DNA of 35,615 nucleotides from a virus: positions 1-35,615 of IMG/VR virus record IMGVR_UViG_3300010939_000011; one strand, 5' to 3'. The notes below the pieces were generated by a model that was not told the DNA's origin, did no database searches, and worked only from the letters and a program-made list of their open reading frames with translations. Position numbers and translations under genes: made by a program. Shown in pieces: positions 8,867 through 34,413 of this stretch (its first letter is position 1; each line of letters starts with the position of its first letter).

Positions 8867-9589
8867 ATGAAATCTAGCCAGATCGAATGGACTGATAACA
8901 CCTTTAATCCTTGGTGGGGTTGTCAAAAGGTAAGCGAAGGTTGCCAACATTGTTACGCCGAAAGCCTTGCAAAGAGATGGGGACATAATCTCTGGAACGG
9001 AGATAAACGAGTTTTTGGTGACAAACATTGGTCTCAACCGTTGATATGGGATAAAGATGCCGGTGAAAAAGGAATTAAAGTCAAAGTCTTTTGTGCGTCG
9101 ATGGCTGATGTTTTTGATAGCCAAGCCCCTCCCCATGAAAGGGAAAAGCTGTGGCGCCTGATTAGGACGACGCATAATTTGATATGGTTGATGCTCACCA
9201 AGAGGCCTGAAAACTTTGGTAGATTTTTGCCGGATGACTGGGAAGACGGTTATAAAAACGTTTGGTTGGGCGTCACCTGCGAAAATCAAAAAAATACTAC
9301 TAGACTCAATATCCTTAAAGATATCCCAGCTTATTCTAGATTTGTGAGCGCCGAGCCTTTGATTGGACCTATCAAATATGATTTTTCTAAATTCGATTGG
9401 ATTATCATTGGAGGCGAAAGCGGCCCCAGGTGCAGGCCTATGGATCTGAATTGGGCTAGAGAAATACGCAATCAAACAAAACAAACAAAGACCGCTCTTT
9501 TTCTTAAACAATTAGGCGGTCATCCAAACAAGCGTGGTCACGAAAAAGCTATTCTTGATGGCGTTTATTGGAAAGAATTTCCTAGCTGA
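8867..9589 (+). CDS. DUF5131 (phage Gp37/Gp68) family protein, radical-SAM-like three-Cys motif
   Basis: The 240-aa protein is a clear member of the Gp37/Gp68 (DUF5131) family. It opens with IEWTDNTFNPWWGC and carries the family cysteine cluster C19-x6-C26-x2-C29 followed by YAE, thought to hold an iron-sulphur cluster in radical-SAM-like fashion. Further family segments are CASMADVFD, WLMLTKRPEN, NVWLGVTCEN and WIIIGGESGPRCRP. Its substrate is not established. It is the only plus-strand gene of the window, sits inside the minus-strand head operon and overlaps the methyltransferase-like gene tail-to-tail by 8 bp. The ribosome site is weak. A moron-type acquisition is likely. Confidence 0.85.
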   Translation: MKSSQIEWTDNTFNPWWGCQKVSEGCQHCYAESLAKRWGHNLWNGDKRVFGDKHWSQPLIWDKDAGEKGIKVKVFCASMADVFDSQAPPHEREKLWRLIRTTHNLIWLMLTKRPENFGRFLPDDWEDGYKNVWLGVTCENQKNTTRLNILKDIPAYSRFVSAEPLIGPIKYDFSKFDWIIIGGESGPRCRPMDLNWAREIRNQTKQTKTALFLKQLGGHPNKRGHEKAILDGVYWKEFPS

Positions 9590-13844: not shown

Positions 13845-15137
13845 TTAGAAAGACCATGTCGGCATTTTTAAAAATTTCTTTTCAACCGATCTTGAAAAAT
13901 AAGCTATGTTATCCATCGCATGATTATTCACTTCGTTAGCTTCCTCGGGCGCGTTCTTATATTCCTTTCCTGGTCTTTTCTCATAACCACTAGCTTCCTC
14001 CCGCGCATATACCATAGACTCGAATATCCTAAATTTTATACCTTTCTTTGCAGATAGGAAACCTCTAACAAGATCAAAGGAATGGGCCTTATCTCTTTTG
14101 ATCGCAGCCCTTGTCACAATACGAAGATGCCTCTCCATGGTCCGACGGTCTTCAGCATTGTGGTCACATATTACTGATGTTGGCCGCCTCTGCTCAAACT
14201 TAGGCTTTAGGATCTTACAATGATCCTCAACTATCTTCTTAGCCACATAGTATTCATCGAACAGGTAAAAAGTTTCGTTTGTCTTATCGTGCGCCCACCA
14301 ATGAACGCAGAATGGGTTCTCATATCCAAAGTCTACGACGGCGGATTTTTCCCATTCATCTGGTATATCAAAATCAGGTACTACCGCGCTTTCAAATTCC
14401 GGATACATAAGCCCGGTATCTTCTACATATTCCCCCTTAAAGAATCTCTGTCGCGCCGTGCCGGTTAAGCTCGATAATATCTTAATTCTTTGCGGCGTCA
14501 TGCTCGGGTTATCTGTAGGGAGCCACGGCCCTACACGTGCTATGCTCTTATCTCGTATCGCATTTCCTTCCTCATCCTTCCTCAAAACAAATCTCTGGTA
14601 CTGCCATGTCTTTTTAGTGCGTGGGTTCCAGTCAAGTATGCTCTTGTTAGAGAAGCCAGGCACTTCCTGCTGGAGCGACCCTTTTACAGTCTGGTATGAG
14701 TCATAACTAATCTGCGAGGCTTCGTTATTAAAGATGATACAATATTTCCCGCCGAGTGATTTCTCAGCGCGTTCCTTGTTATCCAGTCCGGTCCCGTATA
14801 TCTCTGATCCGTTATCGAATCTACAGATTAAAGGTGAGCCCCAGTTAATTTTATATCCTCTTCCAGGCGGACCGACATCTTTCTTAAGAATGTCACATAG
14901 AGATTGTCTCCATAGTGCGGTTTCGCAATCCGTATGGCGAAACCTGGTAGTGAGTGCGCGGGCTCCAGCAAACTGGCCAAGTATGGAAATTATGAATTTC
15001 AATATAATCCATGTCTTCCCTGAATCACGTGCGCCATCTAAGGCTACCTCTAAAATATCAGGATCAACTAGGAGGTCGCTAACAAGCAGTTGTTTTCCCT
15101 TTAGATCGTGATCTATCTCCTTAAGGATTACGGACAT
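13845..15137 (-). CDS. terminase large subunit (PBSX XtmB-like)
   Basis: The 430-aa protein has an ATPase domain with a Walker A variant GARDSGKTW (residues 34-42) and a Walker B strand YCIIFNNEAS, where the usual acidic pair reads N-E. The C-terminal RNase H-like nuclease carries acidic residues in AVVDFGYENPF, VICDHNAEDRR and NHAMDNIAYF. Packaging motor function and genome cutting are standard for the family. It is preceded by TerS and followed by the portal. The 430-aa length fits the PBSX/XtmB subgroup. Confidence 0.9.
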   Translation of the reverse strand: MSVILKEIDHDLKGKQLLVSDLLVDPDILEVALDGARDSGKTWIILKFIISILGQFAGARALTTRFRHTDCETALWRQSLCDILKKDVGPPGRGYKINWGSPLICRFDNGSEIYGTGLDNKERAEKSLGGKYCIIFNNEASQISYDSYQTVKGSLQQEVPGFSNKSILDWNPRTKKTWQYQRFVLRKDEEGNAIRDKSIARVGPWLPTDNPSMTPQRIKILSSLTGTARQRFFKGEYVEDTGLMYPEFESAVVPDFDIPDEWEKSAVVDFGYENPFCVHWWAHDKTNETFYLFDEYYVAKKIVEDHCKILKPKFEQRRPTSVICDHNAEDRRTMERHLRIVTRAAIKRDKAHSFDLVRGFLSAKKGIKFRIFESMVYAREEASGYEKRPGKEYKNAPEEANEVNNHAMDNIAYFSRSVEKKFLKMPTWSF

Positions 15138-23360: not shown

Positions 23361-23645
23361 TTAGTCATTAAGTATAGCCTCACCCTTTTTGAGTGCCTCC
23401 TCTTTCTCTCTAATTTGAACGAGGTATTCATGGGCCGCATCAGTTTTAGCGTGGAGTTTTGCTAGTTCCGCCCGAGCGAATACATATTCTAATGCCTCCT
23501 TATGGCGCTTTAGTTCCTTTTGTAGCTCATCCCGTTCTTTCTTTAAAAAACCAAAGGCATTTGCCGCTTCACACATATTATCTGACATCTTTTCCATCTT
23601 TTCATTTTCGATCTTGAAAAACTCATAGTATTTACCGCCTGTCAT
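23361..23645 (-). CDS. coiled-coil small protein
   Basis: The 94-aa protein is nearly all helix, with heptad-like charge patterns (LKKERDELQKELKRHKEAL, then VQIREKEEALKKGEAI). ATG 23645 overlaps the recA stop (ATGA), so its production is tied to RecA. A dimeric coiled coil is likely; the role is unknown. Confidence 0.55.
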   Translation of the reverse strand: MTGGKYYEFFKIENEKMEKMSDNMCEAANAFGFLKKERDELQKELKRHKEALEYVFARAELAKLHAKTDAAHEYLVQIREKEEALKKGEAILND

Positions 23646-24694
23646 TTGATCTCTCCATGTCCTGTAGTGTTTTGTTGGTCATTAGATTTATTTATCGCCT
23701 CAACTATGGCGCTCTCGTGTTTTCTTAGATTCTCACCAGCTGAAGTCTTGCCCTGTCCGAGCTTAGTATCTTCCCACTTATACCATGAACCCGCCAAGGT
23801 AATCACCCCCGCGTTTAATGCCGTCTCTAATAAACTATTGTCTCTCGAAAAGCCTTCGCCATAAATTAAATCTAATTCTGTCTGCTTAAACGGTGGGCTC
23901 ATTTTGTTCTTAACGACTTTGATCCTGACACGTGCCCCTATCACATTTTCATCTTTTTCAATCTTGCCGATTCTCCGAATGTCCATCCGTATAGATGCGT
24001 AGAATCTAAGAGCAAGGCCCCCCGGCGTAGTTTCTGGATTGCCGCCGTATGGCCCCATATTAATTCTCATCCGGATCTGGTTAATAAATATTAATGCCAC
24101 GCCTTTCTTATGGACCGCCGATGCAAGTTTACGCAAGGCCTGAGACATTAATCTCGCCAATAATCCTACGTGTGATTGCCCCATCGTTCCTTCTAACTCA
24201 GCACGTGAACACATGCCGCCTACCGAATCAACTATGATTAACTTAACTGCTCCCGACTTAACTAGCCTATCAACGATTTCTAAAGTTTCTTCTGCTGTCT
24301 CAGGTTGTGAGCAAAGCAGATTATCAATATCCACTCCTAGCTTTTTAGCGTAGTCAATATCCAAGGCGTGTTCCGAATCTATGTAAGCTACAGTTCCATT
24401 TTGTTTCTGACACCCTGCCACTATCTGAAGTGCAAGCGTGGTTTTCCCCCCAGATTCCGGGCCATACATCTCTGTAATTCTTCCTATGGGTATCCCTCCA
24501 ATTCCTGTAGCCATGTCAAGCCCGATCGTACCGGTAGATAATGATGGCGATTTTACTCTCTTGCTATCTCCTAATCTCATTAGTGATCCTTCTCCAAACA
24601 TTTTATTTATTTCTGACATGGCAAACTTTAGCGACTCTTTAGGTTTGAGCCCGGCTTCTTTCACCTTTCCTTTCTTTGATTTCTTAGTCTTCAT
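23642..24694 (-). CDS. recA: phage-encoded RecA recombinase
   Basis: The 350-aa protein is full-length bacterial-type RecA. Walker A GPESGGKTT is at 78-86 (most bacterial RecA read GPESSGKTT), the Walker B strand is VKLIIVDSVGGM, and the DNA-binding loop regions are RAELEGTMGQSHVGL and MRINMGPYGGNPETTPGG, followed by LRFYASIRMDIRR. The Glu of the GNPETT element, which senses ATP, is kept. It forms filaments on single-stranded DNA and drives strand exchange. The gene overlaps the nuclease gene (TAATG) and has GAGG upstream. Loop 2 departs from the usual GVMFGNPETT, consistent with a phage lineage instead of a recent host copy. Confidence 0.92.
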   Translation of the reverse strand: MKTKKSKKGKVKEAGLKPKESLKFAMSEINKMFGEGSLMRLGDSKRVKSPSLSTGTIGLDMATGIGGIPIGRITEMYGPESGGKTTLALQIVAGCQKQNGTVAYIDSEHALDIDYAKKLGVDIDNLLCSQPETAEETLEIVDRLVKSGAVKLIIVDSVGGMCSRAELEGTMGQSHVGLLARLMSQALRKLASAVHKKGVALIFINQIRMRINMGPYGGNPETTPGGLALRFYASIRMDIRRIGKIEKDENVIGARVRIKVVKNKMSPPFKQTELDLIYGEGFSRDNSLLETALNAGVITLAGSWYKWEDTKLGQGKTSAGENLRKHESAIVEAINKSNDQQNTTGHGEIK

Positions 24695-28540: not shown

Positions 28541-29326
28541 TTAGTTCGTCTTTGTTTTTGATTGCCTGTCCTTCTCCATCATTTCCTCAACTGTGAAAAA
28601 TGTCTTTTGATTGGCGGGCCTTACCCTGGGAAGTAGGGAAGATCTCTTGGAATACAAATATCCTAGGTCGAGTTTTTTGGCCTTCCAGTCACATGCCTCG
28701 GATAAAGCTATCAACTGTTTAATATCCGCGCCTTTCTTCAGGTGCTTCTGTAAATCCCCCCAGTCTTTGGGGATTAATTCCTTAACTTCCAGCTTGGCAT
28801 ATTCACACCACGAGATGGCTAGATTATGAATAGGCGCGGTCCCGCTTTTAGGGGCCGCTTTCTTTGTACTCTCTGAAGTAATCTCTGTTGTAGTCTCTGT
28901 ACATATAGTGCCGTTGTTTTCGGCTGACTGGTGGGCCGCTTTTGCGCTCACTAGTGGGCCGCTTTTCGGCTGACTAGTGCGGCGCTTATCCCATTCGTTT
29001 GTTAGTTTATTCCAGTCGTGTAGATAGTAATTCTTGCTGGGCTGGCCTCTTTTGTCGATCTCGCAAAACTTAAATTCAAGCAACCATTTTTTTACTGACT
29101 TTTGCTCATGTCGCGACAGGCCGGTCTCTCTGGTTATGGCGTCTTCTGTTTTATGAATCCACCCATCCGGGTCCTTTTGTTTGTCTTTCCAGTAGGCAAA
29201 CTGGCAAATCCAAAGGGCCCGCTTGACTCCTCCAAGGGCTTGCGCGATTGATGGGTAATATGCAACCGGCCTCCCTATCCCGTTTAACAATGAATCCAAC
29301 CTCACAACAATTGGAGCCTTAAACAA
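28541..29326 (-). CDS. replication initiator (O-like winged-helix protein)
   Basis: The 261-aa protein has a winged-helix N-terminal region (IAQALGGVKRALWICQFAYW, then AITRETGLSRHEQKSVKKWL with YYLHDWNK) as in phage replication initiators, a low-complexity linker (residues ~115-160) and a C-terminal domain with a DnaD-like pattern (ISWCEYAKL, LKKGADIKQLIALSEACDW). The linker is encoded by tandem DNA repeats that may be the origin. The start is TTG 29326: GGGGG of the leader terminator stem lies five bases upstream and would act as its Shine-Dalgarno. GTG 29305 is the alternative. HNH and loader genes follow. Confidence 0.7.
   Translation of the reverse strand: MFKAPIVVRLDSLLNGIGRPVAYYPSIAQALGGVKRALWICQFAYWKDKQKDPDGWIHKTEDAITRETGLSRHEQKSVKKWLLEFKFCEIDKRGQPSKNYYLHDWNKLTNEWDKRRTSQPKSGPLVSAKAAHQSAENNGTICTETTTEITSESTKKAAPKSGTAPIHNLAISWCEYAKLEVKELIPKDWGDLQKHLKKGADIKQLIALSEACDWKAKKLDLGYLYSKRSSLLPRVRPANQKTFFTVEEMMEKDRQSKTKTN
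28865..28900 (-). repeat. three tandem 12-bp repeats in the initiator gene
   Basis: Units at 28865-28876, 28877-28888 and 28889-28900 share the core tctctg (plus strand). They are in frame and encode a Thr/Ser/Glu linker (TETT, TEIT, SEST). They sit directly beside the 23-bp repeats, making a repeat-rich segment of about 130 bp. Confidence 0.85.
28923..28991. repeat. three tandem 23-bp iteron-like repeats, candidate replication origin
   Basis: Units at 28923-28945, 28946-28968 and 28969-28991 share gct-[gc]-act-[ag]-gtg and then gccgctttt (third copy gcgcttat). As 23 is not a multiple of 3, the three copies are read in different frames, so the repetition is kept at the DNA level and not for the protein. 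Origins with iterons inside the initiator gene are known from lambdoid phages. The period is close to two helical turns. Confidence 0.75.
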
Positions 29327-29363
29327 AAAAGCCCCCTTTGTTTGGCAACAGGAGGGGGACTTT
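29325..29363 (-). terminator. rho-independent terminator just before the initiator gene
   Basis: In the minus-strand RNA, AAAGU-CCCCC (plus 29363-29354) pairs with GGGGG-CUU (plus 29336-29329) with one bulged base, followed by six U (plus 29330-29325). The 3' arm also supplies the purine-rich sequence in front of TTG 29326. It would end messages from the right-hand early genes or from the promoter at 29411-29439 unless overcome. Confidence 0.75.
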
Positions 29364-29401
29364 CTTGATGAAAAAAATACCTATTACTGTCTCCCGTTGC
29401 C
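29344..29401 (-). promoter_or_regulatory. leader RNA alternative hairpin (possible antiterminator)
   Basis: RNA segment GGCAACGGGAG (plus 29401-29391) is complementary to CUCCUGUUGCC (plus 29354-29344), 11 pairs with one G-U. The second segment forms the loop and one base of the terminator stem, so this pairing would compete with the terminator or make a pseudoknot with it. A U7 tract and AAGAAAG lie in the 36-nt loop. Together this looks like an attenuator. Confidence 0.55.
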
Positions 29402-29410
29402 ATACCAAAG

Positions 29411-29439
29411 ACCATAATCTATCGTTTGCCACGTGTCAA
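29411..29439 (-). promoter_or_regulatory. sigma70-type promoter for the replication operon
   Basis: TTGACA (plus 29434-29439, read on the minus strand) is a perfect -35, followed by a 17-bp spacer and TATGGT (plus 29411-29416, 4 of 6 matches). Transcription would start near 29404, giving a leader of about 78 nt up to the initiator TTG. No gene lies between. Confidence 0.65.
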
Positions 29440-29484
29440 TAAGGTTTTGCCGCTTCTTATTCCAGATCTGATAAATTCTTTCAC

Positions 29485-29613
29485 CTAGTACCCCCACTCC
29501 TCAGCCGGTATTACTTCAACTCCGCATTTGAAGTGTTCGCAGTCGTCGCTTAAGTTTTCATCCTCATCCCATACAAACTCATCACATCCGGGGCAGTAGT
29601 ATTTATCGGTCAT
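29485..29613 (-). CDS. 42-aa zinc-ribbon protein
   Basis: ATG 29613 follows GGGGAGTTTTGAA, a good site. The product has YYCPGCDEFVW and, after an acidic stretch, DDCEHFKCGVEV, so a C-x2-C ... C-x4-C ribbon is likely, and it ends EEWGY. It is the last gene before the leader and promoter of the replication operon. Function unknown. Confidence 0.6.
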   Translation of the reverse strand: MTDKYYCPGCDEFVWDEDENLSDDCEHFKCGVEVIPAEEWGY

Positions 29614-33918: not shown

Positions 33919-34102
33919 CTATTTGACCTCCTGATATTTGACATCTGTTTTCTTGGTTGGTAGAGATTCGCCTCTCTGCCTAAGCTCCTCTACTATGTGC
34001 CTGAGCATTAATTCCCGGCGCTCTTCGGGTGTTCCTTCGCATTCAAAATTAAGCATCGAGACTGCCAATAATACATGATTTGTATATTTGAGTTCGTTTC
34101 AT
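33919..34102 (-). pseudogene. small gene with a +1 frame disruption after its start
   Basis: A perfect AGGAGGTAAGAA precedes ATG 34102, but that frame stops after 16 codons at 34052. The other frame is open to 33919 and reads NELKYTNHVLLAVSML, then FECEGTPEERRELMLRHIV. Removing one A from the AAA after the ATG would join start and frame into a 60-aa protein. Alternatively translation starts at ATG 34056 (45 aa). A homopolymer error, a real mutation or a leader peptide could explain it. It precedes recT directly. Confidence 0.5.
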
Positions 34103-34112
34103 TTCTTACCTC

Positions 34113-34274
34113 CTAGATATAATTCCAAAAACGCGGGCCGGATCGCTTCAACTTAGAGAACCCACCGGACACGACATAACTAGTATTATCGCCGCGAATA
34201 AATCTTATGATTCCAAAAATCGGAGATCCGAACCGGATAGAACGAACCCCCGATAAACAAAAAGAACTATTCAT
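34113..34274 (-). CDS. 53-aa small protein
   Basis: ATG 34274 is preceded by GAAGGGAAATTCT, a good site, and overlaps the end of the zinc-ribbon gene in another frame. The product is basic with Ser/Gly and aromatic residues (GVRSIRFGSPIFGIIRFIRGD, in two blocks here: GVRSIRFG and IFGIIRFIRGD; it ends RFWNYI). TAG 34115-34113 is followed at once by the next AGGAGG. Composition is only fairly protein-like. Confidence 0.4.
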   Translation of the reverse strand: MNSSFCLSGVRSIRFGSPIFGIIRFIRGDNTSYVVSGGFSKLKRSGPRFWNYI

Positions 34275-34413
34275 AGAATTTCCCTTCGCCGTAAAGGCTG
34301 CTCATGTATTCCTGATAATTACAGCCATAGCAAAGTTCTGGATCGGCTCCATCGGGATCTGTATAGCCCCAGCATTCTCGACAAAATTCCCAGTTCTTTA
34401 TAGGTTCGCCCAT
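34267..34413 (-). CDS. 48-aa zinc-ribbon protein
   Basis: ATG 34413 overlaps the preceding stop as TGATG. The product has EFCRECWGYTDPDG and ELCYGCNYQEY, a C-x2-C ... C-x2-C ribbon, with an acidic end. It resembles single-domain ribbons elsewhere in the window. Function unknown. Confidence 0.6.
   Translation of the reverse strand: MGEPIKNWEFCRECWGYTDPDGADPELCYGCNYQEYMSSLYGEGKFYE

Follow-up and report, generated by a model that had tools for sequence, protein, structure and literature searches.

Control of phage replication is usually viewed as a matter of promoter repression and antitermination. In the Staphylococcus plasmid pT181, a pre-emptor in the repC leader sequesters the 5' side of a terminator by base pairing, and an antisense RNA frees the terminator (PMC5703833, PMC4878617). 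In the pIP501/Inc18 repR system (RNAIII), the rep mRNA is attenuated at a terminator located immediately 5' of the initiator start, in a leader of about 320 nt, and both the Cop repressor and an antisense RNA take part. In the immunity of satellite phage P4, a CI RNA (seqA/seqB/seqC) stops transcription of the replication genes early, as summarised in PMC4825925. Gifsy-1 IsrK combines a prophage promoter, a short leader and an intrinsic terminator with partial read-through into phage genes (PMC4825925). In phage lambda, the origin (ori-lambda) lies within the O gene (PMC6022878).

The locus compared here with these systems lies in a window of 35.6 kb (GC 42%), the whole stretch of DNA that was analysed, which is IMG/VR virus record IMGVR_UViG_3300010939_000011. 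We put at a little better than even the chance that positions 29404-29306 act as a transcription attenuator within the mRNA leader of an O-like replication initiator. Like pT181, the locus has a rep-gene leader, a pre-emptor set against the 5' side of a terminator, read-through as the predicted default and a terminator just before the rep start. Unlike pT181, the replicon is a phage with an O-like initiator, the ribosome-binding site likely follows the terminator rather than lying in a stem-loop (stem-loop IV in pT181), and an antisense promoter is unsupported, whereas the antisense RNAI of pT181 has been demonstrated. The position of the terminator immediately 5' of the initiator start is shared with pIP501, but the leader is only about 100 nt long and neither a Cop repressor nor an antisense RNA was found. 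As in P4, replication genes would be controlled by RNA pairing that ends transcription prematurely within an untranslated leader; the CI RNA of P4 is processed from its own leader, whereas no such RNA or repeated target was found in the window. The likeness to IsrK is one of layout, and IsrK differs in acting in trans on the translation of an antirepressor mRNA, while the target here is the replication initiator. The iterons lie within the initiator coding sequence, as they do in lambda O (PMC6022878). By analogy, the leader may work like the attenuators of pT181/pIP501 rep and of P4; membership of these classes is not claimed, because the antisense promoter is unsupported and the window holds no second copy of the arm. 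Lambda O itself is not known to carry an attenuator leader. The predicted leader is likely an additional case of a known kind of attenuator and, if real, would extend plasmid-style initiator attenuation to a tailed phage whose initiator is of the lambda O type and provide a compact RNA switch on phage replication.

Nearly all of the window genes are on the minus strand, as are the leader, its promoter and the initiator gene. The initiator (28541-29305) was assigned by PHROG 9773 (E=2e-20) and by tblastn to phage O-like proteins, and repeat searches showed three 23-bp direct repeats, TTTTCGGCTGACTAGTGGGCCGC, inside the gene (28917-28987). Both the sequence match and the iterons within the gene expected of a lambda O-like initiator were thus found, and the iterons are presumed to be the origin. 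A single iteron-like copy on the minus strand (13/15 matches, 29493-29507), 54 nt upstream of the -35 element, is inverted relative to the array and could serve in self-regulation by the initiator. The initiator is followed by genes for an HNH endonuclease, a DnaC-like or IstB-like ATPase and an SNF2 helicase, and further on by a phage-encoded RecA (23642-24694; Pfam RecA E=7e-114). RecA is rare in phages of this size class; a single-protein scan of IMG/VR gave one distant relative of it (L008, 43%). Ahead of the initiator is a gap of 179 nt (29485 to 29305) that scores as non-coding and contains the promoter, the complementarity and the terminator.

Two start codons were considered for the initiator, TTG (29326-29324), proposed in the original prediction, and GTG (29305-29303). 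The O-like homologues from phages, plasmids and IMG/VR that aligned well numbered 36; every one of them (36/36) has an ATG or GTG where the initiator has GTG 29305, and the seven extra residues that would be added by starting at TTG 29326 fall outside the conserved region. GTG 29305 is the more likely start because the homologue starts align there and the seven extra residues are not conserved. Read from the sequence, the GGGGG located 5 nt before TTG 29326 is nevertheless the better-spaced Shine-Dalgarno; GTG 29305 lies 26 nt downstream of this GGGGG and has a weaker candidate of its own, AAGG, 11 nt ahead of it. With GTG 29305 as the start, the terminator would end about 20 nt before it and GGGGG would not be its ribosome-binding site. 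The terminator stem would hold the ribosome-binding site of the initiator only if TTG 29326 were the start. The earlier assignment of AAAGGGGG as the Shine-Dalgarno for TTG 29326 is therefore doubtful in the face of the 36 homologues, and the idea that one structure blocks both elongation and translation through that site is probably wrong.

The promoter that had been proposed for this leader was present at 29439-29411, with a -35 element TTGACA (29439-29434), a 17-nt spacer and a -10 element TATGGT (29416-29411). The pattern TTGACA-N15-19-TATRRT occurs once in the window against an expectation of 0.10. When all window positions were scored with a sigma-70 weight matrix, this promoter ranked second over both strands and first on the minus strand. 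The transcript is predicted from the spacing to the -10 element to start at about 29405-29403. A promoter-like plus-strand sequence, TTGCCA-17-TATCGT (29397-29425), overlaps the minus-strand promoter and ranks eighth in the window; transcription from it would head away from the leader and against the upstream genes.

Within the leader, a 5' antiterminator or pre-emptor arm, UGGCAACGGGAG (29402-29391), can pair with a 3' antiterminator arm, CUCCUGUUGCCA (29354-29343), to form hairpin A, with 12 pairs including one G-U where 11 including one G-U had been claimed. The 3' arm corresponds to the loop of the terminator hairpin plus its last stem base. No inverted repeat in the surrounding 1.2 kb ranks above this complementarity; stems of at least 11 bp occur about 2.7 times per strand in shuffled windows, so the length of the inverted repeat is not in itself rare. 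The intrinsic terminator, hairpin B (29366-29325; arms 29366-29354 and 29336-29325), reads AAGAAAG.CCCCCU/GGGGGCUUUUUU, has a folding energy of -17 to -19.2 kcal/mol and carries the predicted run of six U (T at 29330-29325). In a scan of the window it was the strongest minus-strand hairpin with a T-rich tail. A further hairpin, C (29335-29313; arms 29335-29328 and 29320-29313), is predicted in the read-through RNA with a probability of 0.98-0.99 and ties up both GGGGG and the AAGG before GTG 29305. Thermodynamic prediction also gave a possible anti-antiterminator hairpin, D (29412-29389), in which 29412-29407 pairs with 29394-29389. An Rfam search of the leader returned no family at gathering score (best E=0.47, far below that score), which agrees with the first reading, in which no riboswitch or T-box consensus was recognised. 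A known riboswitch, a T-box or another cis-regulatory RNA from Rfam was rejected, there being no match to these curated families.

The competition between hairpins A and B was followed by nested folding, which excludes pseudoknots, of the growing RNA with its 5' end at 29404 or at 29388, the latter lacking the 5' arm. With the 5' end at 29404, hairpin A stood at about 0.98 from a length of 62 on and B remained below 0.01 throughout; when the RNA began at 29388, A was lost and the probability of B was 0.84. The native upstream arm lowered the probability of B from 0.84 for the terminator alone to 0.004. At the termination point the A state had an energy of -23.9 kcal/mol against -20.9 kcal/mol for the forced B state, and over the 105-nt leader the corresponding values were -37.8 and -31.2 kcal/mol. 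The folding z of the leader was -4.2. In a chance control, the terminator was kept and the upstream 38 nt were swapped for shuffles or for random pieces of the genome, with B at or below 0.01 as the threshold. Suppression to this level was seen with 1 of 1000 shuffled segments and with none of 1000 random genomic segments. As stems of such length are not rare, the argument rests mainly on how the arm pairs with the terminator. A GC-rich hairpin with a U run upstream of the gene is present, and so, in silico, is a competing upstream pairing.

Hairpin A is complete once the RNA reaches 29343, ahead of the GGGGG arm at 29336-29332, and the order of synthesis would presumably favour A too. The predicted default is read-through because hairpin A is both more stable than B and complete before the 3' arm of the terminator; stopping transcription would then need something that masks the 5' arm. 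The competition that had been expected between the two pairings was seen in the nested folds of both structures, but its direction differed from that implied: the antiterminated state is the default, and a signal must cause termination rather than relieve it. Since A pairs mainly with the loop of B, the two hairpins could also coexist as a pseudoknot.

An attenuator with read-through as its default is plausible given the position of the element, the folding energies and the chance controls. An attenuator-like leader before the initiator, as first proposed, is the best-supported reading on position, folding and chance controls, with the direction of the default changed. RNA polymerase would start at about 29404, and 29402-29391 would pair with 29354-29343 before the 3' arm of the terminator exists, preventing B and letting transcription continue through the initiator to the replication genes that follow. 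Were 29402-29391 occupied, B would form and transcription would end within 29330-29325, some 20 nt short of the likely GTG. In the read-through RNA, hairpin C may dampen translation. This sequence of events assumes that the promoter is used, that termination takes place in the cell, that A and B are mutually exclusive instead of joining in a pseudoknot, and that there is a signal. The most likely class of signal, by analogy with the rep and phage P4 switches, would be an RNA binding to the 5' arm by base pairing. With its default ON, the element would do little without a signal.

Transcripts arriving from upstream may behave differently. In RNA starting at 29480, 29484 or 29613, A also formed at 29338, and the lowest-energy state at 29322 held B, partly by way of hairpin D. 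The segment 29412-29407 is absent from RNA made from the local promoter, so local and upstream transcripts could meet different fates at the leader, and the folding gives a thermodynamic hint that they do. It is possible, but improbable, that the attenuator reads the start site itself: upstream RNA would carry 29412-29407, which captures part of the 5' arm as hairpin D, so that B forms and transcription stops, while local-promoter RNA without this segment would keep A and be read through. Only transcripts from the own promoter would then be admitted to the replication genes, with no need for a trans-acting signal.

The main competitor of the attenuator reading, which we regard as unlikely though well ahead of the others, is ordinary operon punctuation, in which the terminator ends or tunes early transcription from upstream, a separate local promoter serves the replication genes, and the upstream complementarity plays no part in regulation or does no more than aid RNA stability. 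Since the neighbouring genes all run in the same direction, transcripts from upstream do arrive at the leader, and in the full-length RNA derived from them the terminator is predicted to form; stems of 11 bp are no rarity in so large a window, and the leader was not conserved among the loci searched. Punctuation does not account well for a local promoter that precedes the terminator, where its transcripts would be cut short if nothing intervened, nor for a native upstream arm that suppresses the terminator far beyond what chance segments achieve. The pT181/pIP501 class proper, in which a countertranscript from the opposite strand would bind the 5' arm, drive termination and set the frequency of replication, seems rather improbable. 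The order of pre-emptor, terminator and rep start is that of pT181, and a hairpin fold is open to the antisense strand of the terminator as well; however, with the start at 29404 the leader has no 5' sensing hairpin apart from the pre-emptor, and the plus-strand promoter-like sites that would read across it rank only 629th and 904th in the window, on which ground an antisense promoter was rejected in this sequence-only test. A trans-acting RNA from a second copy of the arm was also rejected, there being no further close copy in the window.

That the inverted repeat acts at the level of DNA, as a protein-binding site or origin structure with no RNA switch, is very unlikely. Initiators often control their own promoters, and the inverted iteron-like copy at 29493-29507 lies upstream of this one, but the inverted repeat is unlike the iterons, has a 36-nt centre and places its 3' arm exactly in the loop of a terminator with a U run. 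Least probable is control by a leader peptide or translational coupling, with ribosomes on an open reading frame from ATG 29415 or 29403 to TGA 29302 choosing the hairpin. This frame has 33-37 open codons and a 4-nt overlap (GTGA) with GTG 29305, and in many homologues real upstream genes are arranged in this way. It lacks a Shine-Dalgarno, however, a frame of such size is fairly often expected by chance, and its codon score was -4.1 bits, against 10.6 +/- 4.8 for real genes and -3.5 +/- 6.4 for open non-coding frames; translation of the frame was rejected, as its score equals that of non-coding frames.

The attenuator leader was absent from the 262 loci examined, which counts against the attenuator reading, as do the possible pseudoknot and the preference of upstream RNA for B. 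An alignment of the initiator gave 80 O-like loci with the leader in none, a terminator-like hairpin within 80 nt upstream of the start was found in 0 of 46 O-like homologues, and in many O-like homologues the start overlaps the upstream gene instead. The exact inverted-repeat pattern retrieved no other leader from IMG/VR. Single-protein scans of IMG/VR with the initiator, RecT and the terminase gave no relatives, while a terminase scan of genome contigs gave six distant ones. All matches in the SNF2 alignment were at 48% or less, with an initiator near none of them, and the terminase alignment reached Leptospira-type prophages at about 40%, none of which has this initiator. Either the leader is specific to its own lineage or it comes from a group absent from the collections searched. 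If real, it would indicate that such control can be lineage-specific, because other O-like genes do without an attenuator.

The closest matches to the terminase (13845-15137) are Leptospira LE1-type prophages, at about 40%, and this similarity hints at a spirochaete host. Elsewhere in the window, the gap before recT (33919-34412), part of which is covered by a 53-aa open reading frame, contains two terminator-like hairpins, one at 34253-34220 and the other at 34173-34132, and TTTTTGGA comes after each of them. The sole clear plus-strand gene of the window (8867-9589) resembles the phage Gp37/Gp68 (DUF5131) family. In another virus (L099, 14-3004), the SNF2 helicase gene adjoins an O-like initiator and is split by an insert; beginning with Cys and ending in ...VHNC, this insert looks like an intein.
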